A stretch of DNA of 64,000 bases, taken from assembly GCF_048128805.1 (NCBI RefSeq), contig NC_136001.1, positions 5,772,001 to 5,836,000 on the forward strand, given 5' to 3'. Below are positions 1 to 31,200 of this stretch, one piece after another. This DNA is from Centroberyx gerrardi. Taxonomy: Eukaryota; Chordata; Actinopteri; Beryciformes; Berycidae. The notes under the pieces were generated by a model. It was not told the DNA's origin. It saw nothing but the letters and a program-made list of their open reading frames with translations, and ran no database searches. Each line of letters opens with the position of its first letter. Position 1 is the first letter of the stretch. Made by a program: the position numbers and the translations under genes.

Positions 1-1150
1 TTGACAGAGATGAACAATTAGGCATAAAGTAAGGAACTCACATTTAGTGCAAATTAGAGGCCTATTGTGCAAGGGCCATATGTAGTAATTGCAACAGTCT
101 TTGGGCTTCTTTTCAACCAACAGCAATTGTATTGTATATTGTTATCGGCATCAAAGGAACATGGTCAATAGGCAAATTTTGATATCGCCCAAGCCTAGCC
201 CTAACTCCTAGTACACACCTTTTGATTAATGTTACAATCTAATATTGTGCTGTGATTGCACAGTTACATCCAATTATGTCCCTTCTAGCTTTCTGAATCT
301 CTAGGTGAGCTGCAGGTAAATAAATAACATAAAATTCCTCTTTTGATATACATGCCCACTGGGTCAGCAGATTGGGTCTTTTCTGTGGCAAAACTAGCTA
401 CAACATGTGTATTAAACTATTGTGTTGTGGAGAGTCCCTAGATGCACATTCAAGTTTATATAACAATAATAATAAGCAAGTAGACACCATATGGTTGGTA
501 ATTCGGTGACCTTTGTTATACCAATAAGGACAATATAATATGACACGTTATTGATAAGAGTGATTTCTATGAGCACTGGAAAGTTCATTGGACAAAGTCT
601 GCAAAATCACTGGCATAAATAACTGCTCAAGGTTACATCCCTGCACAACTTTCCCTGCTCAAGTGTGTTAGCCTGGAATGAAATCTAGGAAGAGTAGGCT
701 ACCCATGTGCCCCACCAACCTCCCCTTTCCCGTATCACAGTTTACACATGGCTGTATTATTTTATGGCAATGTTTGTTGCTCTTGGTTTGAAGTTATGTC
801 CTCCCCCTTAGGGTTGCGTCTGGTGATGCATCAGGTGGGTGCGTTTTATTATTTCTTTGAAGGGTATCAACTTCTCCCATTCAGTGTTTGATGTCACAAG
901 CGTTACATTATCCTGGTCGAAATTCTGATCTTTCTCAAGAGTTGTGATATAATAACTGGGTAGCTTTACTTGTATTGTGTCCATAACAAAGCAGCATGAA
1001 CATTAGACGTGACAAATATGTTGTTTTATAATTGTTAGCCACGTTACTGTGTAATAGGTTTTTTTTGTTAACGTCTAATTAGAAATAGTTCATATGTTGT
1101 TAGGGGCCTGTAAAATTAAGGGTTACCCCAAAACTCAATCTTCTGACCAG
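1..1150. other. Intergenic, no gene recognised
   Basis: AT-rich sequence with stops in all frames. I see no exon, RNA gene or clear mobile element. It is the 5' flank of the chitinase relic that follows. Confidence 0.6.
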
Positions 1151-1430
1151 GTTCTCCATCATGGTGTCCAATGTAGCCAACTATCAGAATTTAATTCAGT
1201 CGGCTGTCAAATTCCAGAGGGCTGAATTTGATTGTCTGGACTGGGAGCACTGGATCTCTTGGAAGATCAAGGTAGAATGTACGTTACTATATTTTCACCA
1301 AAATGCTGTGTAATGGTTCTATCCCTTTCTTTTGTGCTGTCTCTCTTGCTCTCTCATTTTTACCTCTCTATTCCGCCCTGTAGGTCGACAACCTGAAGGA
1401 GATCAAATTTGCTGGAGAAAAATTTTGAGC
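1151..1430 (+). pseudogene. Chitinase relic with fused exons 5 and 9
   Basis: A short decayed copy of a GH18 chitinase. From 1151, after an intact acceptor, the sequence follows coding exon 5 of the neighbouring chitinases (FSIMVSN, then QNLIQS), but the catalytic stretch is shortened to FDCLDWEH, so the usual DGLDLDWE is broken. After the part matching TGGATCTC-TTGGAAG it jumps to the last bases of exon 9 (GATCAAG) at about 1271, followed by a donor. About 110 bp later, after an acceptor at 1382-1383, comes an exon-10-like piece (VDNLKEIKFAGE) that ends in a stop near 1426-1428. Exons 6-8 and most of exon 9 are gone. No promoter, start codon or chitin-binding exon is visible. This is a dead gene fragment on the same strand as the two chitinases downstream, and marks a third, collapsed member of the tandem cluster. 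Confidence 0.8.
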
Positions 1431-4132: not shown

Positions 4133-7100
4133 ATGACCAAGCTCACCATTCTTGCAGGTGACTCATTGTTACTCATTACTATAACTTTGATGTTACTCAT
4201 CTTCTGAAAACCAGTACAGAATTTAACCATCTGTAGAGTGGGTGTATTATTACAGACAGTTTTTGACATCAAGTGTCTCTCTCTTTCCATAGGCCTGTGC
4301 CTGGTATTATGCCAGCTGGGTAAGTGATGCTTGCCTTACATGTATTTTCAAACAAATAACATTAGTATTCTAGTTTTCAGTTTTAGTTATGGATTGCCAA
4401 CAATGTCCAAGCATGCAAGTTGTGCAACCTCTTCATATTTGTCTGAACATACAGTTATTTTTTCTACTTCAAACATTAATCAGTAACTCAATAAACAACA
4501 AGTACAAGTTGTGCAGAGTCCCACAGTGCATTCATGGTGATGGCATATAGATCTAATTAATGATCAGTTGATTAATTAATGATCAGTTTATTAGAATGTG
4601 ATCTTCTTTACTGCTTAATAATTGCCTGTTAATATTGAAGTGACTGGCATTTGATAAATCACAGTTGGAGGATTTTCTAAAAACAAATTTACATTCTAAG
4701 TAAGAAGTAAGTTCTCCTCATCATCAAATCTCATTTGCATACAAAGAGATTTTATACAAGTTATCTACAGTGTGAAGATTTATGGTTCAATTTTCCCAAC
4801 AATTCATCTTCATTAGATAAATTATATACCTCTCAATAAAGAACAGCGTTGATTTGCACAAAACGACTTTTACCTTTTACCAAACAATGACAATGTTTCA
4901 TATTACCCAGCTATAGGGGAGGGAAGCGTCCCACTTCTGGTTGCCCTGGCTGAATTTGGCTGATGAAGACCATGTTGCTGTAGCAGCTGCACTATGATAA
5001 AATAGATCTCTGACATATAAATGACCCAAGATGTGCTTTCTCCCTACAACACAGCAACTGCCACCCAGATGGTGTGCTACTTCACCAACTGGTCCCAGTA
5101 CAGACCTGACCAAGGGAAGTACAAGCCAGAAGATGTGGACCCCTTCCTGTGCACCACCCTGATCTACGCTTTCGCCATGATCAACAGCAACAATGAGCTG
5201 ATCACCTATGAGTGGAATGATGAGGTCCTCTACAAGTCCTTCAATGGCCTGAAGGCTAAGTAAGTGGCCTATAGGGAGCTGAAATTTCAGTTATCATGAC
5301 AGCACTATCTTAGAGTACACTTTAAAATGTGTTGTTCTACCAAGCATAGAAAACATTTGGTGCTACATAGAGAATGTAATAATCCTCCTCAATAATCTCT
5401 TCTGTGTTTAGGAATCCTCATCTGACGACTCTGCTGGCCGTTGGAGGATGGAACTTCGGTTCAACCCAGTGAGTATCCAAGTGGTGTCAATATCCCTGAT
5501 TTGCTCTGCGAAAACATAATTGGATTTTCCGCTTTTGTGAACTTACCCCCATATATGGGTCTTATTACAACTGATTTTAATTCCTCCAGATTCTCCATCA
5601 CGGTGTCCAATGCAGCCAACCGTCAGAAGTTCATCCAGTCTACTATCAAATTCCTGAGGACTCATGGATTTGATGGTCTGGATCTGGACTGGGAGTACCC
5701 TGGATCTCGTGGAAGTCCCCCAGAGGACAAGAGGAGGTTCACACTGCTCTGCCAGGTGGAACATTGACCTTTTAATCTCATGTTGAATGAGGAGCAAATT
5801 ATCCATTGAGTGTACTAGAAACTGTCTTATCAACTGCTGTGTGCATTTACAGGAACTTGTCGCTGCCTATGAAGCTGAGGCTGCAGCCACTGGCAACACC
5901 CAGCTCATGCTGACTGCTGCAGTGTCTGCAGGAAAGGGAACCATTGATGCTGGATATGAAATCGCTGAGATTGCCAAGTGAGTCTTTTGGAATGGCTATT
6001 ACTTAAACAACAAGGAATGGAAATTATCAAACAAATGATATTGTGTGTGGGTGCAATCACTCTTACAGGTTGTTTTCTTTGGTTTGAACCATGGTTGAAA
6101 AGTTTGAAGTCTGTGTAACTTCAGCTAAGCTTGATGGACTTGTCTACGCTCTTCTTCTCTGGTGTTCATACCAGTTAAGAACACATGAAGAAATAGCTGA
6201 ATATCAGCATCAATCCAGACTTAATTTTGTTATACTAGGTTTTCCAAGCATGAGGAACTTTTGGCTATCATATGTCAACATTCGTCTCCATATACCCATA
6301 ATGTTTCCTGTTATTGGTACGGATTATGTTCTCAGTAACGAACCGCACCGCAGAGACAGCAGAGACCTGCAGCAGAGACCATGCAGTTGGTGCCACCCGA
6401 GTTCAAATAAACCGCTCCAAACATGCTTGGTGTGAATACAGCCTGTGTTTTGATGTGTCTCCAGATATCTGAACTTCATCAATGTGATGACCTATGACTT
6501 CCATGGAACTTGGGAGAAATTCACCGGACACAACAGCCCGCTGTTTCGTGGATCCCAGGACAAGGGTGACCTTATCTACTTCAACACTGTAAGGATATAT
6601 ACGAGTACATTAAACCAATAGAGCAAGAGGCATGAGATGAAGAGATGGAATCTGTGTCATGCATGTCTCATATGTAATATATGTCTAAAACTTGATCACA
6701 GTAGGCATGGTCTTGCATTTAAACCTCAATTACAACCTTTTTCTCTGTTGATTCTTCCTTTAGGACTATGCCATGAAGTACTGGAGAGACAACGGCACCC
6801 CAGTGGAGAAGCTGAGGATGGGTTTTGCTGCTTATGGTCGTACCTTCCGTCTGACATCATCAGACACTGGTGTTGGAGCCCCAGCTAGCGGCCCTGCATC
6901 AGCCGGACCATACACACGTGAAGCTGGCTTCTGGTCCTACTATGAGGTAAAGTCTAGATACTGAAACGTAACTGGTCCAGTACAATTGGTGATGAATCAA
7001 CCTAATATGTAAAGTATGGATAAATTGTTCTCAGTTTAATTTTTTTCATTGCCTTTTTCAGATCTGTGGCTTTATGAAGGGCACCAAAATTCAGTGGATT

Positions 7101-8045
7101 GAAGACCAGAAAGTTCCCTATGCCACCAAGAACAGTGAGTGGGTAGGATTTGATACCAGGGAGAGCTATGAGATCAAGGTAGGTGGCACATCAACACCAT
7201 ATTTTCCACACATCCAGATCATATCCACGGCACAGATGTATCATTCTCTATCTGTTTCCATCACATAGGTCCGCTACCTGCAGGAGCAGAAGTTCGGCGG
7301 TGCCTTTGTGTGGGCGCTGGATCTGGATGACTTTGCTGGACGTTTCTGTGGAGAGGGCAGCCACCCTCTGCTCTCACATCTCCGCAAACTTCTTGATATT
7401 GGTAAGTCTTTGAGAACATTTTCCTTGTTCCAATTTTTGTTTGAAAATTGTTTGAACTTCAGTTCAACTTCAGCTCACTGCTGTTTAGGAAACAGTTTGT
7501 ATTTCTTAAGTTTCGATTCACCACTTCACTGTGGGTGAAGAAGTGTCCATACCGGACACCAGAATTTCATTTGGGCAAAGCGAATCCCAATCCAGGGGCA
7601 AGGGACATTCCTCTCTACTAGTTTTCCTTTTACGCTTAAGATAATTTATTTTTCCATAAAAATATTGTGTAGTGCAGCTTTGTGTCATAAAAAGGAATTG
7701 CTACCGCTTCACATGCACCACAACCACAGTTCCTTACATCCACACAGGCCTCAATGTAAAGCCCATCTTCCTTTCCATTCTTTTCTCCATCTAGAGCTGC
7801 CCCCACTGCCCCCTACCACCACCCCCAAACCCGGCGTTAGCACCCCCGCCCCTCCAACCACCACCACCACCGCCACCACCCACGCTCCAGGGACTGGCTT
7901 CTGTAACGGCAAACCAGACGGCTTGTACACCAACCCAGACGACAAGACCACCTTCTACATGTGCGCTGGTGGCATCACCCATGTAAGGAGCTGTGGACCT
8001 GGATCCATCTTTGATGAGGGCTGCAAGTGCTGTGTCTGGCCCTGA
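4133..8045 (+). CDS. chia: Acidic chitinase, secreted GH18 with chitin-binding domain
   Basis: Endochitinase that hydrolyses beta-1,4-GlcNAc chains of dietary or pathogen chitin in the gut or extracellular space. Coding exons: 4133-4157, 4293-4319, 5055-5259, 5412-5468, 5590-5755, 5853-5977, 6465-6588, 6764-6946, 7062-7178, 7269-7401 and 7795-8045, giving 470 aa, the usual length for the acidic mammalian chitinase family. A signal peptide is followed by CYFTNW. The sugar-binding GGWNFG is in exon 4. The catalytic DGLDLDWE ends at E140 in my numbering and MTYDFHG (M210, Y212, D213) is intact, as is the WALDLDDF strand. A Thr/Pro-rich, mucin-like linker leads to a complete six-cysteine CBM14 domain ([10 protein letters not shown] to CKCCVWP). 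All introns are GT-AG. Every catalytic residue that I can check is present, so I expect an active enzyme. Which of the several fish chia paralogues it is cannot be decided here. Confidence 0.95.
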
Positions 8046-11046: not shown

Positions 11047-14000
11047 ATGAATGCAGGAATAGCGAGCATAATTGGTGAGAATTCCCTTTGTTGTTTCTAT
11101 CTTTCCATTAGTCTATTGTGATACTTTTTGCAAAAATGAAAAATCAATCTTGTGTTGATGTGCACATTAAAAAAACATATATTTATGCAAATTGAAATAC
11201 AGCCACTTGCATTTAATTGAACTTGAATCTGAACTGTGCCTCCTACAGTGGCTCTGCAACTCTTCATTCAGATCGGTGAGTAACATACTTTCCTATTTTG
11301 TTGCATGGGGCAATAATGGGAGGTGTTGTTTCACTTAACAACCTATACATTGTTTCCTCAACCCAGCAACCACAACCAAGCTGGTATGTTATTTCACCAA
11401 CTGGTCGCAGTACAGAACTGGAGTAGGGAAATTCCTGCCACAAAATGTGGACCCTTACCTGTGCACCCACCTGGTCTATGCCTTCGCCATCATCAGTCAT
11501 GCCAATGAGATCACTGAATATGAGTGGAATGAGAAAACTCTCTACAAATCGTTCAATGAGCTCAAGAAGAGGTAAGAATTAAATGCTCAAAATGTCAAGT
11601 TCTCTCTAAATGTTGTATGCCTACAGTATACATGGTGTTAAAAGCTAAAGAACTTATATATAGTCAACCAGTCAAGCAATCAATCATTTTCTTTCTCTCT
11701 TACTCGCATACATGTAACCCATGAGCAGAAACTCAAGGCTGAAGACTTTACTGTCGGTCAGAGAGGGGAGCCATGGTGGATCCCAGTGAGTCTAATCTCT
11801 GTTGATAACTCCTTATGAAAGTCTTCCATCTGGTGATGGAAGGGGAGAATGGCGATAAAGTAGTATTATTTTTTTAAGTGCATTGGTTTGCAATTATAAG
11901 TTAGGGTTATGCTGATGTATTGGTTTGTCAATATCTTGGGCCAATATTAGCCTTGTATTCAAAATCAGATCTGTTCCAGTCAGTGTCGTCCACCCCTGAT
12001 CAAACTATTGTCCCATCACTTAGGTTCTCTATCATGGTTTCCAGTGCAGCAAACCGTCAGACATTCATCCAGTCATCAATTAAGTTCCTGAGGACTCATG
12101 GATTTGATGGTCTGGATCTGGACTGGGAGTACCCTGGATCTCGTGGAAGTCCCCCTGAGGACAAGAAGAGGTTCACTCTGCTCTGCAAGGTGCTGGAGAC
12201 TCTCTCTTTCTTTTCTCTAGAGTCTGCAGGATACCAGCTGATCATTTATGTTCTCAACTAGAGGTCTGATACCTTGTGCTTTCTATTTGTCCTCAAGTAT
12301 CGGATGTTGACTCTTTGCCATAAAACCCAGTCTGTACTCCATAATCTGCAATGACAGTTCATAACATGTTTACATCTAGCGCGATACGGAACAATGTAAT
12401 TAAATCTAAAGTTGACTAGTTAAAAGAGCATTTCAGGTAATTTTTTGTATACTGCGGCGCCTAAGGCAGACATATAGAGGCCCACCCTCCTTTGTATCAC
12501 TGGAAAGGTTTAGGCTATTCCCGATTGAGCAGCCTCAGGTTTTGTTATCTGTGTCACACCAGGCAATTTCCATGAAACGTGATGTTCAACACTTGGACAC
12601 TTCCTTTCATTCTATTGTCATTCTGTCACTCAGACTCATAAAAGCCACAAGGACTGGACTGAGACTGGGAGGGGGGGCAGTGCTGGCTTGAATAACAGAT
12701 TTTGTTGTTTTTGCGTAGTGTTGTAGTGTCGTAGAGTTGGATTGTATCCTGAGGAAACCAGGTAAATGGGATATCATAAAAACATTTAAAAGTCCATGGT
12801 TTTGATGTCACATCACTTATTATTATTTTATAGGATTTGTTGACAGTAAGCAATGCATTAAAAAACAACAGCCTTATCCTTTAAGGTAACTTCCTAAATT
12901 CTAAGTGTATTTTCTTGGACTTCTAGGAGCTTTCAGAGGCCTATGAAGCAGAGAGTAAAGGAAGTGGGAACACACGACTGATTCTCTCCGCAGCAGTGGC
13001 AGCAGAAACAGATGTTATTGATAAGGGGTATGAAATCACTGGGATGTCCAAGTAAGGCTTACAGTACATTAATAATCAGAATAAAATGGTTTAATGGTTT
13101 TGTCATTAGATGATCACATGTTGCTCCAATAACACTTCTTTGTGTGTGTGTGTGTGTCTGTGTGTGTGTGTCTAGGTACCTGGACTTAATCAGTGTTAAG
13201 ACCTTTGACCTCCATGGTGGTCAAGATGGAGTGACAGCCCACCACAGTCCACTGTACCGGGGAACACTCGCCACTGAAAACAATGCCAACATAGTAAGAA
13301 AACATTTTATGTAACAAATCATCAGGCAAAGCAAAGGGGTGCTCTGCAGGGTTGGGGCCATTCATGAACTGCATGGTAAATTCCAATTTAGTTCCTGGAA
13401 TTGGAATTGGAATTGAATTGCACCCAGCTCTAAGGAAACAGAATTGGAACTGAATTGGAATGAGAGGAAACAGAACTGAGTTCCATGAAATTCCATGAAA
13501 TTCCACTTCTAAGAGAGGTTGTCTTGACTTGCTAAACATTATAAATCAAACATTATGAATCAAATAAAAGACAGTTCAACAAACAAAATGCATTCAATCA
13601 TAATATATGTATTGCAATTACATGTTATGTATCAAATACCACCTGAAAGTAACCATTTCATGGTATTCAGTATTGATAATTTATAACACTACGTGTAATC
13701 TCAGATATGTGGAAAGAAGAAAAAAAAAACATGGAATCACAGAATTTCAATGATTTAAATTAAACTTCCTTAAATTCCAATTCAATTCTAGTTCTGTTCC
13801 CTGTAGGGTTTTTTTTCAAATTCCAATTCCAATTCCTCAGTTGAATTGGAATTGATGAGTTCATTCATGAACTGACCCCAATGCTGGTGCCCTGCGAAGA
13901 GCCTTTCTTGCTATCTGTCAACACTACCCTACTGTGAAGTCCATGGGATCTTCTAGGAGTGGTGATGCCATTTTTCAAGAGACTTGACTGTTTGTTTGGA

Positions 14001-17000
14001 TCCAGTAGCTTGCCTTGAACATAACCTGGTCCAGAACAGGTGAGCTGTGCAGCCTAAGTGACCATGAGGATGTACCCCTGCTTAAAAGTGTTCCACTCCC
14101 ATGAGACCGAAAAGTCAGTTATGCCCAAAGTTAGCTCATTAACCCACTAATCTTACCATCTTGCCACCCATTAATTGAAAGTGAGACAAGTCCCAGGTCG
14201 ATGCTTTGCTAGGTAAGATCATATATCATGACACCATAGTAGAGCAACTCCCCGGGTAAACAAATAACCTCACTAACAGCCCTTCCCTTTCTTCCCTGCC
14301 AGGATTATGTTATGCAGTACTGGCTGGACCGAGGAGCCCCAGCAGGGAAGCTGTTGCTGGGCTTCCCCGTCCATAGCCATTCTTTTACCCTCTCCACCAC
14401 ACTCACAGGCCTGGGTGTCCCAGTCAGTGGCCCTGCCACCCCTGGGCCCTACACCCAGCAGATTGGCCTCTGGTCCTACTATGAGGTAACGGGAGCAGGG
14501 AGCAAGTCTATCCATATATAGTAGAGATATCAACATAATCATAGCAATAGTAATATCAACATATTACTACTAGTGCTGCTACCACTACTAGTGCTACTAC
14601 TACTACTACAACAACTACTACTACTACTGCTTCTACTGCTGCTTCTACTACTACTACTACTACTACTGCAACTGCAACTACCACTACTGCTACTACTACT
14701 ACTACTACTACTACTACTGCTACTACTACTGCTATTACTACTATTACTGCTGCTACTACTGCTACTACTACTACTACAGAAGTATATTGTCACACATATT
14801 TATGCCTGTTGTTTCTTCCCTAGACCTGCGCCTTCCTAAAAGGGACCTCAGTCCAGTGGACTGATGGTCAGAAAGTTCCCTACGCTGTCAAAGGCGGTGA
14901 GTGGGTAGGCTTTGACAACCAGAAGAGCTATGATGCCAAGGTATATGACCCTCTTGTGGAAGGGAACACAGATATTTTAAAAAGGCCCTGTAGATTTGAG
15001 CAGACACAGTGTCTTTCCCCCGTTCGTTTTATAGGTGGGCTATCTGAGGAGCAGGCAGCTTGGAGGGGCTGCTGTGTGGACACTGGATATGGATGACTTC
15101 TCTGGGCAGTTCTGTGGGCAGGGCACATATCCACTGATATCACATCTAAGAAGCCAACTCAATAAAGGTAAGGCCACCATACAGTCTTATACTGCAGTTA
15201 TAGACAGCATACATCATAAATATGTCATGACCTTTACTCTCTGGGCACCAATTCACTAAACCCTAAGCTATGGCAAAGTCTCTGCATCTAATAACATTTG
15301 CCACCAAAACTTCCAAACCTGCTTATATGTCTTTTAAATGTCTGGGGACAAAGTGGAGCAATGACTGAAGACTGACAATATATTATTGTTTGGTTGTGTG
15401 ATCAATTATTAGACGTAGGTCACCAATCTACTGATAACCTATCAGCTTAGCGGGAACATTGGTCCTGAATGCTCGTTGATGTGGTTTTTGGTAACACTCT
15501 ACTTGAATTGTTGGTTCTAAGTCATCTAATAAGTGCATGAGAAAATGCATTATGATTCTATGAGGCTGCTAAACGTAATGTTTATCACTGGAACCTATAT
15601 TTCTTTATTTATAATATAAAGTACCACTACTGCTACTGAAATATTAATATATTTATTTTGTTTATAAGCTGTGGATTTCTTATCAGTGTTCTTTCTCTTC
15701 ATGAACTCATAATATCATCTAAAGTACATCAAATGATCTGTCATGACAAGTAATAATAATATAAATGTACATTTACTATGAGCTGTAAATGCTTTGTTAG
15801 CCATACTAATCTTCATACTGATTAAACTGCGATCAACTACAAGTGCAGTATGACACAGTGCATATGCATTTACTTTTATTATGGGCTGTAGAATAACTGT
15901 TGCATGACATAATACACTGTAACAGACACGATTTTGGATCAGGTTTCAACAGCTCCATTATTCACTGTGTTCATCTAAGGAATTATATTAGCTCAACTGA
16001 CAGATGAAAAAAATATCTTTTGGATAATACCAAATACATGAATATAACACTAATGTTAGGGTTTGAATATAGAGGCTTTGCAGTTGCATCACAAATGTTC
16101 TATCAACCATGTCTGGTGTCATCATGGAGGTGTATTGGAGAAGTAGCTGTGTGCAATAATGGCTAAATGTAAAATAACCAGGCTAGAAAAAGAGTGCTAG
16201 CTGAAAAGACTGTTGTGGTGTGACTGTAGATCCATTCAGTAACGTTTGCTCCTTTAGTCTTAGCTTCCTATAACAGCCTCATAACCTGGCTATACCAGAT
16301 TAATAATGCATTATAGCGTATTAAGATTAAATTATTATTATGTTAAATATATGAGCCCCAGTTTTAAATATATTACTTAGAACAGTCCCATAATCTGCTA
16401 GTGCCAGATTCATGATGTGTTATAGTGTACTAGGACATTTTCTGATGAAGTTATAATGTAATATGTTTTTATGATGCACATATGATGAACAATTCAAGCA
16501 AAGTGGTACCATTGTTTTATATTTTTGGCTTCCAAATAGAGTGCCAATTTGGTCTCTACTATAAAGATAAAAACTACAAGATTAAATTTTGTCTCATGTA
16601 GGCTAAGGTATGGGAAATGCCATACTTACATACCCAACTGACAGCCATGATTACTCCATAATTAAAGGGAATCAGATCGTGCAAACTAACTGGAAATGTA
16701 AATAAAATATGTACATTGAAGAGTCCACTTGATGCATCTCCCCAGTATATTTCTTCCTAGACTGGATACCACAGCAAACAACTCCTGCTGTCCCTCTCCC
16801 CACCACCACCACCACCTCCTCCTCCCTCCCTCTTGACCACACCCAGCCCACACAGCACCCGTCCCAGATCAGCGGCACCACCACAGAAACACCAGGCCAC
16901 AGCTGCTTCCAAAACATCACCGTTGTGTATCCCAACGATGGCTTCTGCACACACAAACTGGACGGACTGTACCCGAGGTCGGAACACCCAAAGACGTTCT

Positions 17001-17158
17001 ACAAATGTGTGCGGAGCGAGACGTCCATAACGAGATGCCACACCCTCGTGACGGAGCACAGTAAGGGAGTGCGAACAACGCCTCCGGGAAGATTAGCTGT
17101 GGTCAGCCTTGCAATAGCCGCACTATTACAGATGTTAGGTGTGTGGAGTAATGGGTGA
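11047..17158 (+). CDS. Diverged chitinase-like protein with hydrophobic C-terminus
   Basis: GH18 family paralogue of the upstream chitinase. Coding exons: 11047-11074, 11249-11275, 11367-11571, 11729-11785, 12024-12189, 12927-13051, 13176-13293, 14303-14485, 14824-14940, 15035-15167 and 16761-17158, giving 518 aa. Exons 3-6 and 8-10 are exactly as long as their counterparts, and there is no stop or frameshift. It has a signal peptide ([19 protein letters not shown]) and CYFTNW. The catalytic DGLDLDWE is intact (E141). However, GGWNFG is replaced by REGSHG, losing the substrate tryptophan, and MTYD has become KTFD (Met to Lys, Tyr to Phe). After a Thr/Pro/Ser-rich linker the CBM14 domain keeps three cysteines (GFC, YKC, TRC) and loses the other three. 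In their place is [14 protein letters not shown] and a hydrophobic tail, [18 protein letters not shown], then SNG and stop. That tail resembles a GPI-anchor signal or a single membrane span. I infer a surface-bound chitin-binding or weakly active protein. A donor-like CACA/gtaagg near 17060 could give another 3' end. Confidence 0.85.
13139..13172 (+). repeat. (TG)n microsatellite abutting a splice acceptor
   Basis: An almost pure TG run ends three bases before the exon 7 acceptor of the second chitinase, where it takes the place of the polypyrimidine tract. Confidence 0.85.
13347..13887. mobile_element. hAT-type MITE in intron 7 of the second chitinase
   Basis: The ends are CAGGGTTGGGG on the left and, reversed, CAGCATTGGGG on the right. 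The flanks GTGCTCTG (13339-13346) and GTGCCCTG (13888-13895) match at 7 of 8 positions, a worn hAT duplication. Both ends continue inward with ATTCATGAACT and repeated AATTCCAATTCC motifs in opposite orientation. No coding capacity is seen. Confidence 0.82.
14558..14778 (+). repeat. (CTA/CTG)n triplet repeat in intron 8
   Basis: About 220 bp of imperfect CTA, CTG and CAA triplets in the intron between exons 8 and 9 of the second chitinase. Long open frames here (poly-Leu, poly-Ser) are artefacts of the repeat. Confidence 0.92.
15490..16511. mobile_element. About 1-kb inverted-repeat element in intron 10
   Basis: GGTAACACTCTACTTGAATT at 15490 is matched in inverted orientation by AACAATTCAAGCAAAGTGGTACC at about 16489-16511. 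This end sequence is that of a very common teleost non-autonomous DNA element. The interior contains degenerate inverted motifs (CATTATAGCGTATTA, TGTTATAGTGTACTA). It accounts for most of the long last intron of the second chitinase. Confidence 0.65.
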
Positions 17159-17578
17159 TTTTGTTTCATATGGACAAAGTGTTTGGACACTGGTGTACTG
17201 TGAAGGAAGTGAGATGCTATGAAACTGTGGACAACTAGGAGAATCCCCCAAAGAGCATCATATTCAAAAGTATTTTTTTTATTTTTTTTATTTTCATTAT
17301 GGTCTTCATTTACACAATGAACATCATTAAATCATAACCATATTAAGTTTGAAACATTAGTATAATTACTGTAAACAAACGAGACCATCAGCAAGAAAAC
17401 CGTCAGCCTCTACCAGCCTCTACACTGTATTATACATTGTGTGCCACCACGTCAGATTTGGCAGGAAATCTGCTGCGCTGCTTTACACAGAGGTTTTTTG
17501 CTATGAACATAGCAATTAAATAATGAGTTATAGTTGGACACTAAAAGATCCAATATTCATTAAAAAAAAGATACATTC

Positions 17579-17584
17579 AATAAA
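17579..17584 (+). terminator. Candidate poly(A) signal of the second chitinase
   Basis: AATAAA lies about 420 bp after the stop codon and is the first canonical signal that I find downstream. Confidence 0.45.
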
Positions 17585-17589
17585 ATGGG

Positions 17590-18219
17590 ATTACAGGTAG
17601 GTAAATAAAGGTTTATAGACAGGATACAGCACCTTTTTACTTCTTTTTACTTTTTATTCTCAAAGGACAAGTCAAAGTCCCGATTTTGATATGCTTGTAT
17701 AAGAGATTATTAATTTCACCCCTTCCCCACTGCTGACCGCTGAGTATCACATATTTACTTTTCAGCAAATCCCTAAAGTCACTGGAGATCTAATGGAGTA
17801 TAATAAATAAGAATGGAGTATAACAAATTATAAATAAGAATAAATAAGTGAATTAACACATAGGATCAGTATGGATCAGTGGCAATCTGTAGGATCCATG
17901 GTTGCATCTAATATACTTGAGTTTCAGGAAAGAATAGGATACAATCAAGCATGATGACATAAGCATAGTTTATTGGCCAGTCATTTTTAATGTGTTCAGA
18001 AGGTATTCTAGTTAACATCACTCTTCATCCAACCTGCCAAATCAATAGATGCACGTCAACGTGAACCTCAAAGTGCTTTGGCGGCATTGTGTGACGGCAA
18101 TGTTCAACAACAGCACAAAGGCAAATCTTCCTCTCTCCACATGAGTATCATGGGATTTCCAAAGAATAGATCACTGGAATGTGAGTCTATGTGTGAAGAT
18201 TTTATAAAGTCTATGCTGG
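17590..18219. other. Intergenic, no gene recognised
   Basis: AT-rich flank of the second chitinase with no recognised exon or repeat. Confidence 0.5.
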
Positions 18220-18718
18220 TTTTCACACAGCGCTTAGCCCAGGGCTAAGTGCCTTCTTAGCCCTGGGCTAAGAAACGATTCACACAGGCAAATTCCAAAG
18301 TGGGATAACCCCGACTTTAGCCCAGGGCTAGCTGGCCCTGCTCCGGAGCAGGGTTAACCCCGACTTTTCAGGGTTATCCCCAGAAAATTGTTTAAAACCA
18401 GGGTTATCTGTTGGCTGTGTGAACAGGGTTAGAACACTTTTGTGTCACTTGTGTGTTGTCCAATCAAATCAAACTTCTCCTTCACAATGTTGCTAAGCAA
18501 CGATGCATTGCATTCCTAGGCTCAAGTGTTTTTATTACCATAGAATATTCAGACATGTAAGCCCTGGGCTAACAAGAATGTTGTGTGAATCGCTGGTCCT
18601 GGGCTAAGAGTTAGCCATGGATTAAATGTCTGTGTGTGAACAGGGGTTAAGCTAACACTGGGCCAACTGTTAGTCCAGGGTTAAAATAACCCTAGGCTAA
18701 GAATGTGCTGTGTGAAAA
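18220..18718. mobile_element. Inverted-repeat MITE rich in AGCCCTGGGCTA motifs
   Basis: The outer ends TTTTCACACAGC (18220-18231) and GCTGTGTGAAAA (18707-18718) are exact inverted repeats. Inside, variants of the short palindromic motif TTAGCCCTGGGCTAA recur many times in both orientations. I could not identify a target duplication, so the superfamily is open. Confidence 0.72.
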
Positions 18719-19009
18719 GCCATATCATGACTGTACCTTACATAGCCAGTTCCTACTGTTCACTGATAAAAGTCAATAAAGGTCACAGATTACTTTAATG
18801 CCCCTTTGAAGATATTTCAAAGTTTAAAATTACACAATGTTCATCTTTAAAAACCACTTGCCACAGCCAACAGCAGTAGCAACACACTGCTGTCAGAGAC
18901 CAGCCAGTGGAAGCCAGTGAGCTTTCCTGAAGCTTCAGGACCAATTAAGAAAATGTATTGAGTAGCTTGAGAGGCCATGATATCTAGTTAGATTTTTTGC
19001 CTATGTATA

Positions 19010-28204: not shown

Positions 28205-31200
28205 GCTGTGTATTCAGACGCTCCACTGTCCTCTATCAGTGGTTCTGTGTTTATGTAACTCGTGTTTGTGAGGAAAATTAAATCAGCAAAATATAATATT
28301 AGCCATTAAAAATAGAGCATTTAGATTTTTGTCTTTATATTTATATTAGAACAGCTGTAAAGTGGAGTGTTACATACAGCAAAATGTCCCACTGCTGTTA
28401 TACTGCATATCAGTACTCATGGAATGCCTCCTGTCCAATCAAATTACTCGAGCGGAACTAACTGTTGTATAATACTATATAATATTAGCCTTGTTGACAT
28501 TGCCACCAACTGACATCCAGTGAGGTCACAGAGAAAATAATCACTCTGACTGAGCTTGAAATGTAGGCATCTCTCTCTCTCTCACTCTATCACTTTCTCT
28601 CAGCTGAAGAAGAAGAGATGAGTCTGGGACAAAGACTCCAGGTCTGGCGGTGGAGGTTTTTCACAGCCCTGGACATGCTGGTTGGACACACATGCTTTAA
28701 TCGACTGATCGTCTTCACGCTGGTGATCAACACCATCTCTATAGTGGCCCGGGCAGCTGACGCTGTTGAGCTCAGAGCAGGTAGGAAAATATGGTACACC
28801 AGCTCATTATTGGGCAGATAATGACCAATTTTTTTTATTTTTGTGTGAACTATTACTTTAAAAGAATATAGCTTCAAGCCTTAATTAAGTAAAAGTCAAA
28901 TGTGTAAATAACATCTTTTCTCAAATTCAAGGATGGCACCTTGATGTACTGGAGTGTCTGTTCCTGGCGATCTACATCAATGAGTGCGGACTGAAACTCC
29001 TGGCCTGGGGGCGGCTCTATTTTAAAAATCTATGGAACAATATTGGTAAGACTTCAATATAAATCTAGCAATATTCCCATGTTTTGTATTTCATAATGCA
29101 AGACAGCCCATCCCAAAACAAACTGTACTTTCTCTGTTTTCTTCCTGACACTTTCCCTCTCTGTAACTATCCGGCTCACCCAGATTTCATCCTTCTGGTC
29201 GTGGCTCTCCTGGACTTGTCCCTGAAACGCATGGGCTCTCTTGGGGGATCCGATGAAGGCCCGCCCTCGGAAATCGCACAAGTCCTGAAGAACGTGAGAG
29301 TGTTCCGGGCCCTGCGAGTGTGCCGGGGTCTGCGCCTCGTGCGGTAGGTCGGGCGCCTAAATGTCTTCACTTTACTTCTTCTCTCATGAATCGTTTGACC
29401 ATCATGATAAATGCCATGGAGTCTTTTTGGTCCTAATATCTTTGCTGTTTGTTGAATTCCCAACAGCCATGTCAGCAGCCTCGAGGCTGTGATGAGAGCC
29501 GCTGTCCAGTCTGTCCGGGCCGTGTCGGGCGTCGCCGTCTACATGATCGTGGTCCACTACATGCTTGCCGTCACTTTCACCGGGTTGTTCAGGGAGTCGG
29601 ATCCACAGCACTTTGGCTCCTTGTTCAGGAGCATGTTCACTCTGTTCCAGGTGCTCACTCTGGATGACTGGACCAGCCTCTACTACACCAGCAAGAACAA
29701 TGGTGAGTGAAGCTTCATGTATTACTGAGCAGCTTCATTCCAACATGCTTTACATCCATTTTGAAATTCCTTAGAGAAGATTTGAGAAGCACAGATGATG
29801 CTACCCTCAAACATGTAAATATTTTGTGGGAACATCTCTAAACATGGCTTACTGTAATGGCAACTCATGATGTGCTTTGCTTTCCCTCCAGCAGTCATGT
29901 TGTAAGAAGTCATTTGGCAAGTGTTAGGTCTAGATATGATTTCTTATCATTTTCATATTCTGTACCATCATCAAAAATAATGAACAATGACTCATTTTAA
30001 TCAACCCATTTTCAGAATTGCCTTATGTTTAATACGTGTGCAACTGTCAGAGTCAGGATCATACAGTACAAACAACAAACACTGAACAGTTACATGGCAC
30101 ATGCTTTTAAAATGCGCAGCAAGAAACTACAGCACTAATTGCAAATAGTCCAAATGAGTATTTGTTAGAGGACCTCTCCCTTCATCTTCATTATTAAAAG
30201 GAACCTAGGTATTCATGATGGCATAATATGACAAAACCAATTTTAATGTGTGACAGGGATTATTGCAGCTCAAAGCTATGAACATTGCAAAATAATCAAA
30301 GAAATCACATTTACATCCAAATGATCGTCTTTGAAAACTAAATTGAGCCACTGCATCTGAATTCCTCATGCCATGCACAGCATCATTATTTGTTTGAACA
30401 GCAGATGGCGACGAAGTGTGATTGCACTCCTGGGATTTGACTTTGCATCTGTTGAACAGAAGTATTAGGGGCGGGGCTTTGGATCGGGGTGGGTCTGCTG
30501 CTATTGGTCAGATCAAAGATTGAGTGACAGGCTTCTCAATCTCTGCCAGTCAGTTCCCTTTGTGTGTTGTCCGTCACATTTTGCAACATTCATAGTTTTG
30601 GGCTGCAGTAATTGGTGTTTGGCTTGTGATACCAAATCTCTTTGCGTTGTAATAAGTTAACAATACTCTTGTCATGGTATTTGTCCTGACTTGTGACTTA
30701 CAGTCATCTATTTAATCATTTCAGGTGCACCTCACATTATCATCTTCCTGGTCCTGTACATCATGATACAGTGCTTCGTATTCCTCAGGTAAGTTGGCAG
30801 GTTTACATGCACATTAATATTCTGAATATGAGCTTATTCCAGGGATCTGCTGTTTACCTGGAATGATCAGTAACTACTGTTTTCATATAGCTGTATACAT
30901 GGAAACAGGTCACTGTGTTAAATAGTGGTGCATCATTTGATGCTCGTGACTCTGTGGAAACACTAAACCCAACAATAAACAACAACAACAAGCATATTCA
31001 GGCTTTTCTGATTCAGGATGTGGGCTTATCCCGGTTATTGTAAACAGGATATGGTGTATGGAACATTTAATATCCTGAATATAAATGTAAATAATGTATT
31101 TTACAATTTTCTCATGACAGTCTGTCCATTGCTCTGGTGGTGGATGAATATCAGCACATAAGGGCGTCCCAAATACAAAAGGTATATGCTCTACAACAAA

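Follow-up and report, generated by a model that had tools for sequence, protein, structure and literature searches.

What becomes of a secreted chitinase when a hydrophobic tail takes the place of the second half of its chitin-binding domain? This question is raised by gene B, a chitinase-like gene on the plus strand (11047-17158) of a 64,000-nucleotide stretch of the Centroberyx gerrardi genome (C5:5772001-5836000, here called the window; coordinates are window positions unless stated, and genome searches covered 779 Mb). A reading of this DNA made from its letters, the sequence-only reading, had proposed a glycosylphosphatidylinositol (GPI)- or membrane-anchored product. We found gene B to be an old, open and constrained gene, kept in the genome, that has lost cysteines 4-6 of its CBM14 domain, carries altered active-site motifs in its GH18 domain and ends in a tail with the geometry of a GPI signal. 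Our leading explanation, held tentatively and at somewhat less than an even chance, is that it encodes a probably non-catalytic, CBM14-less chitinase-like protein that is GPI-anchored by a recently recruited tail.

Joining exons by sequence yielded a stop-free model of 11 exons, ten GT-AG introns and 518 residues. Exon 11 (16761-17158) is preceded by an AG acceptor, and its third frame is open and in phase with the ten exons between 11047 and 15167. Read in this frame, it contains what the sequence-only reading had described, namely cysteines 1-3 of CBM14, a divergent stretch and 18 hydrophobic residues that end three residues before the stop. The parts of the gene, together with a neighboring paralogue, are as follows.

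11047..11074, plus strand: exon 1 of gene B, with the start codon and the beginning of the signal peptide, supported by GT donor and phase
11249..11275, plus strand: exon 2, hydrophobic part of the signal peptide, 27 nucleotides
11367..11571, plus strand: exon 3, beginning of the GH18 domain
11729..11785, plus strand: exon 4, in which the GGW lid of GH18 motif I is replaced
12024..12189, plus strand: exon 5, with an unaltered catalytic motif DGLDLDWE and a weak donor, AAG/GTGCTG, score 2.88
12927..13051, plus strand: exon 6, GH18
13176..13293, plus strand: exon 7, MTYD changed to KTFD (motif III) and HGSW/HGTW to HGGQ; 118 nucleotides versus 124 in the nine paralogue models
14303..14485, plus strand: exon 8, GFxxYG changed to GFPVHS
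14824..14940, plus strand: exon 9, GH18
15035..15167, plus strand: exon 10, motif IV (VWTLDMDDF) kept
16761..16939, plus strand: exon 11, first part, with a Ser/Thr/Pro-rich linker, the new cysteine C435 and the N-glycosylation sequon NIT
16940..17038, plus strand: exon 11, first half of CBM14, cysteines 1-3 (C449, C469 and C479)
17039..17155, plus strand: exon 11, tail of 18 residues, then 18 hydrophobic residues, then SNG; candidate omega site S487-K-G
17061..17062, plus strand: candidate alternative splice donor ACA/GTAAGG, matrix score 6.64
17156..17158, plus strand: stop codon TGA of gene B
17579..17584, plus strand: AATAAA, candidate polyadenylation signal about 420 nucleotides past the stop; 17159-18400 has seven AATAAA/ATTAAA words in all
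5055..8045, plus strand: paralogue A, exons 3-11, canonical GH18 with CBM14 intact

Candidate counterparts of exon 2, 27 or 30 nucleotides long and similar in sequence, occur upstream of exon 3 in all nine paralogues, in a search that selected for hydrophobicity and returned more than one candidate in two genes. The secretory signal of gene B is therefore probably real. Intron 8 contains a long CTA/CTG-type trinucleotide repeat tract near exon 9 (14560-14780), and no repeats were found in 16700-17700.

That the product is chitinase-like, as previously proposed, is clear from a Pfam search with the whole protein, which matched GH18 (PF00704) at 300.2 bits (cut-off 29.6) over the full profile (1-317 of 317). 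The closest solved structures are those of mammalian AMCase and chitotriosidase, with E values down to 2.8e-136. The catalytic DxxDxDxE is present as DGLDLDWE. Around it, several motifs have changed, which the earlier reading had not described: REG replaces the GGW of motif I, of which GG is invariant in the nine other models and W in eight; motif III (MxYD) reads KTFD, with M and Y invariant in all nine others; and the YG of GFxxYG has become HS. In a leave-one-out count, the other nine share 127 invariant positions, and gene B differs at 16 of them. Eleven of these differences lie in GH18 and include both GGW glycines, Met and Tyr in MTYD, and Tyr-Gly in GFxxYG. By the same count, the paralogues g1, h4 and k1 differ at 20 of 131, 12 of 123 and 8 of 119 positions, which speaks against a special status of gene B. 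Aligned with AMCase, gene B has Gly, Lys, Phe, Gln and His in place of Trp99, Met210, Tyr212, Trp218 and Tyr267 of AMCase/chitotriosidase, where Trp218 and Tyr267 are residue numbers that we presume. A simulation study of human CHIT1 assigns lid Trp99, Met210 and Tyr212 direct roles in catalysis (PMC12502790). Given these roles and the replacement of all three residues, the gene B protein, with motifs I and III replaced and the Asp-Asp-Glu motif retained, has likely lost most or all chitin hydrolysis.

The claim that half of CBM14 is gone also withstood scrutiny. The last exon holds cysteines 1-3 without cysteines 4-6 and the terminal Trp, and it falls short of the CBM14 profile (PF01607), scoring 14.3 bits against a cut-off of 22.1 over positions 1-32 of 53; the corresponding exon of paralogue A scored 36.2 bits over positions 1-47. 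All nine other GH18-CBM14 models end in an intact CBM14, and gene B alone among the ten lacks cysteines 4-6. Genome-wide, among the 20 matches listed (28 candidates scored), the nine over the cut-off are the nine paralogue exons, and none of the 20 is an over-threshold match near exon 11. The sequence-only reading had named splicing from near 17060 into an exon restoring CKCC as an outcome that would overturn it. This received no support: six CxCC words occur downstream on the plus strand of the window (27741, 28195, 35343, 48709, 51469 and 55191), none CBM14-like in context. Two further sources of a normal domain end were considered and rejected, as tblastn detected no CBM14 exon concealed in intron 10, and the other two frames of exon 11 contain no CxCC that would indicate a frameshift. 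Over 33 codons, the remaining stub differs from the paralogues g2, g3 and A by proportions of nonsynonymous and synonymous differences (pN and pS) of 0.33-0.36 and 0.73-0.86, which fall within the ranges of five intact-domain comparisons (pN 0.20-0.40, pS 0.54-0.93).

The cysteine inventory suggests how the disulfides of the stub might be arranged. Gene B has an extra cysteine, C435 (in HSCFQNIT), 14 residues ahead of the first CBM14 cysteine, a feature that had also gone unmentioned in the sequence-only reading; its C-terminal part thereby contains four cysteines, whereas seven paralogues have six there, and h4 and k1 have seven. For CHIT1, PMC4844120 gives the disulfides as Cys420-Cys440, Cys450-Cys463 and Cys460-Cys462, equivalent to C1-C2, C3-C6 and C4-C5, and reports all six CBM14 cysteines to be individually critical for chitin binding. 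Because gene B keeps C1 and C2 and lacks C4-C6, C3 is orphaned; with the one additional cysteine, the number remains even. A C435-C479 bond could form, in which C435 would serve the orphaned C3. Since each of the six cysteines is critical, the stub should not bind chitin in the manner of CBM14.

A search for GH18 (38 matches) combined with exon-by-exon tblastn provided ten gene models in this genome. Five, g1, g2, g3, A and B, lie in tandem on C5 (5.748-5.789 Mb), four, h1-h4, on C14 (18.56-18.62 Mb), and k1 is located on C5 at 22.62 Mb. Paralogue models were built by rule from tblastn exons with last-exon acceptors picked by pyrimidine content, and the h4 model is short by about five residues in exon 10. 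Over 357 GH18 codons, the pairwise ratio of nonsynonymous to synonymous substitution rates (dN/dS) of gene B with g2, g3 and A is 0.25-0.29 (dN 0.24-0.27, dS 0.93-0.98), and its comparison with the C14 genes approaches saturation (dS about 1.9-2.3). On the gene B branch, six three-point comparisons gave dN/dS values of 0.14-0.37 that were higher than in the compared relative in three cases, equal in one and lower in two; this mixed outcome indicates no clear acceleration of gene B. When neutral substitution was simulated on the GH18 part of a paralogue, the frame stayed open in 1 of 300 runs at 0.23 substitutions per site and in none of 300 at 0.46. As neutral runs lose the frame this quickly and that of gene B is open, the gene has been kept. 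A codon tree restricted to the paralogues of this one genome groups gene B with g2, g3 and A at 62% support, but the grouping is absent from the protein tree.

Other members and remnants of the family were also seen. Gene g1 (C5:5748573-5753756) is another diverged chitinase, with GGWNFG changed to GGTVNG, DGLDLDWEY to DGLNLDWEF and CBM14 intact; it likewise lacks the lid Trp. A decayed fragment of a chitinase exon 5 lies between g3 and A (1146-1250, plus strand); additional chitinase relics may exist at C14:18578531, an isolated exon 5, and at C5:5769049, where part of a second exon 9 lies.

The tail of gene B is built like a GPI signal, with small residues at the omega and omega+2 positions (S487-K-G, preceded by HTLVTEH), a polar spacer of eight residues and a terminal run of 18 uncharged hydrophobic residues, after which the three residues SNG remain before the stop. 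A home-made rule for GPI-like ends, written after the tail was seen, is passed by gene B and by none of the nine other C-termini. Among 66,667 chance reads, each 25-60 codons long and drawn from DNA of the same genome that was mostly noncoding, was unscreened for genes and includes exons of the ion-channel and minus-strand genes described below, 3.5% had a hydrophobic end, 1.1% (742) passed the full rule and 0.15% (98) did so with a run of at least 17. In 20,000 dinucleotide shuffles, 20% were open for at least 25 codons and 0.16% of all passed the rule; the open frame of the tail is, thus, by itself unremarkable. A protein-level genome search for the tail returned 11 matches, comprising exon 11 itself, the nine paralogue CBM14 exons, which stop at query positions 47-49 (cysteine 3 is position 46), and one at C14:28525695. 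The last of these spans the tail at an E value of 1.25 with three stops, and was taken as chance, leaving no second copy of the tail at the protein level in this genome. An origin from a paralogue 3' end or nearby DNA was likewise rejected, as non-self matches in the clusters and the window were no better than E 0.48. The combination of domain loss and a potential anchor is unusual within this genome, and the anchor is plausible.

Several observations weigh against this explanation, beyond the after-the-fact origin of the rule. On four human GPI signals used as controls, the rule passed DAF and THY1 and missed CD59 and PLAP, and structure prediction of the exon was uninformative (mean predicted local distance difference test score 50.8). 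Synonymous codon usage in the tail scores -0.348 per codon, compared with a noncoding mean of -0.26 and a coding median of 0.243, with chitinase genes of this genome as the only coding controls, overlapping windows and noncoding DNA unscreened for genes. Of 331 such coding windows, four are as low as the tail, two from h3 and two from gene B, one of the latter overlapping the tail. The hydrophobic part is lower still (-0.691 per codon, 19 codons), and with amino-acid content counted, the tail lies at the noncoding median and one of 331 coding windows is as low. By the same measure, the linker scores 0.283, as coding sequence does, and the half CBM14 -0.016, which is neutral; the cumulative score peaks at 20.28 near 16973, stands at 19.1 at 17063 and falls to 3.02 across the tail. 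In addition, the donor ACA/GTAAGG at 17060 is usable and could remove the tail: it outscores 27% of 70 paralogue donors and, of the 3,636 GT sites that the window contains, belongs to the best 4%, on a matrix trained on and scored with these same 70 (78 donors were recovered, the other eight from gene B). These data suit an explanation that we consider quite possible, in which the tail is a chance read-through or is spliced off from 17060 and the product is a secreted, anchor-free chitinase-like protein without a working CBM14, comparable to mammalian chitolectins and salmon Chia.5. Comparable open frames are not rare, as the shuffles demonstrate, and Chia.5 also has a truncated chitin-binding domain, according to PMC10234404. 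On the other hand, chance yields a GPI-like end in 1.1% of reads or fewer, good donors arise by chance nearby (the GT after 17208, beyond the stop, scores 8.67), and read-through to 17158 gives the only complete last exon identifiable. The codon test is also weak in this family, since whole genes score as low as -0.028 (h2), -0.018 (h3) and 0.079 (gene B). The data would, therefore, fit either a recently recruited noncoding stretch that is now translated or a stretch absent from the real transcript, and we place the first slightly ahead because no CBM14-like replacement exon was found downstream.

Gene B might instead be in early decay, once functional, now shedding motifs and CBM14, with its frame open by luck. 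Its 16 changed invariant positions, which include motifs I and III and CBM14 cysteines, the weak exon 5 donor and the low whole-gene codon score all agree with this, but we consider it improbable: 518 codons carry no stop or frameshift where neutral runs rarely stay open, dN/dS is well below 1 without clear acceleration on the branch, the catalytic motif and motif IV are retained, and g1 departs at more positions yet has an intact CBM14. Less probable still is a type I transmembrane anchor in place of GPI. Eighteen uncharged hydrophobic residues could cross a membrane, but the cytosolic part would consist of SNG only and the arginines would be luminal, contrary to the positive-inside rule, by which positive residues are expected on the cytosolic side of a transmembrane segment. 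A short segment after the hydrophobic run favors GPI over a transmembrane anchor, and with only three residues following the run of gene B, GPI is the likelier of the two. The anchor proposed by the sequence-only reading was, therefore, supported in its geometry, more for GPI than for a membrane span, and weakened by the noncoding-like codon usage of the tail and the donor at 17060; the epithelium or gamete that this reading offered as an example of its site found no support.

In our preferred explanation of a GPI-anchored, CBM14-less protein, gene B, old and intact within its tandem array of chitinase genes, would make a secretory GH18 protein, the loss of half of CBM14 would have ended targeting to chitin matrices, and the changed motifs would have abolished most or all hydrolysis. 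GPI transamidase would probably exchange the hydrophobic tail for a lipid near S487, and the outer cell surface would then display a lectin-like GH18 head carried by an O-glycosylated stalk. Gene B would then most likely work like an anchored chitolectin. A more specific version is unlikely in our estimate: a vertebrate GH18 protein would have been turned into a GPI-anchored surface glycan receptor by recruiting a noncoding GPI signal after the loss of C4-C6, with the new cysteine rewiring the disulfides and a rebuilt cleft surrounding the untouched catalytic triad, so that ligand is bound and not cut. If the anchor is real, a surface-fixed chitinase relative that lacks the module for chitin matrix would be a candidate for a receptor or local remodeler of this matrix, and gene B would represent a clean case of a GPI signal gained through the loss of a domain end. 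According to PMC10234404, teleosts have the capacity in principle both to synthesize and to break down chitin, and they may maintain a gut barrier based on it. If the tail is unused, gene B would still be a diverged chitinase relative that has retained the catalytic triad and not the lid.

Elsewhere in the window, exons of a voltage-gated-type ion channel were detected at 28567-29707 on the plus strand, with PF00520 matches of 34.7 bits for 29456-29707 and 14.4 bits, below the cut-off, for 29069-29344; they contain a TLDDWTSLYY pore stretch that we take to resemble sperm CatSper channels. On the minus strand, open reading frames of a long chromatin-type gene, presumably similar to setd5, extend over about 36000-57300, and four of them had no Pfam match. 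Many GGGCTAAG-like words and their reverse complements occur at 18220-18720, perhaps as part of a palindromic mobile element.

How does gene B compare with known systems? The nearest precedent for its domain loss is salmon Chia.5, a CHIT1 member that shares a truncated chitin-binding domain but, unlike gene B, has a catalytic motif with loss-of-function mutations (PMC10234404). Truncation of CBM14 alone is, therefore, not new, and the expectation that family members end in a six-cysteine CBM14, although valid for all nine paralogues here, does not hold for Chia.5. The main text of that paper mentions no anchor, with 0 occurrences of 'gpi' or 'anchor', and that of PMC1945033 has 0 occurrences of 'gpi', 'anchor' or 'membrane'. 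No vertebrate GPI- or membrane-tethered chitinase surfaced in literature searches that were partly aimed at it and had most subscription papers outside their scope.

The phrase 'GPI-anchored chitinase' returned fungal papers only, judged by titles. These fungal enzymes resemble our interpretation of gene B in placing GH18 at the cell surface through GPI and have an unrelated architecture. The teleost CHIA/CHIO chitinases, here presumably represented by g2, g3 and A, match gene B in exon lengths and phases, in their signal exon candidates and in having a GH18 domain, a Ser/Thr/Pro-rich linker and a tandem arrangement; unlike gene B, they keep GGW, MTYD, YG and a six-cysteine CBM14 and have no hydrophobic tail. 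With mammalian AMCase and chitotriosidase, gene B has DxxDxDxE in common. The chitolectins CHI3L1, YM1 and OVGP1 share with it a GH18 fold, an altered active site and the lack of a working CBM14. Gene B has kept the catalytic Glu and lost the GGW lid, the opposite of the pattern in chitolectins, and it differs from them also by its hydrophobic tail.

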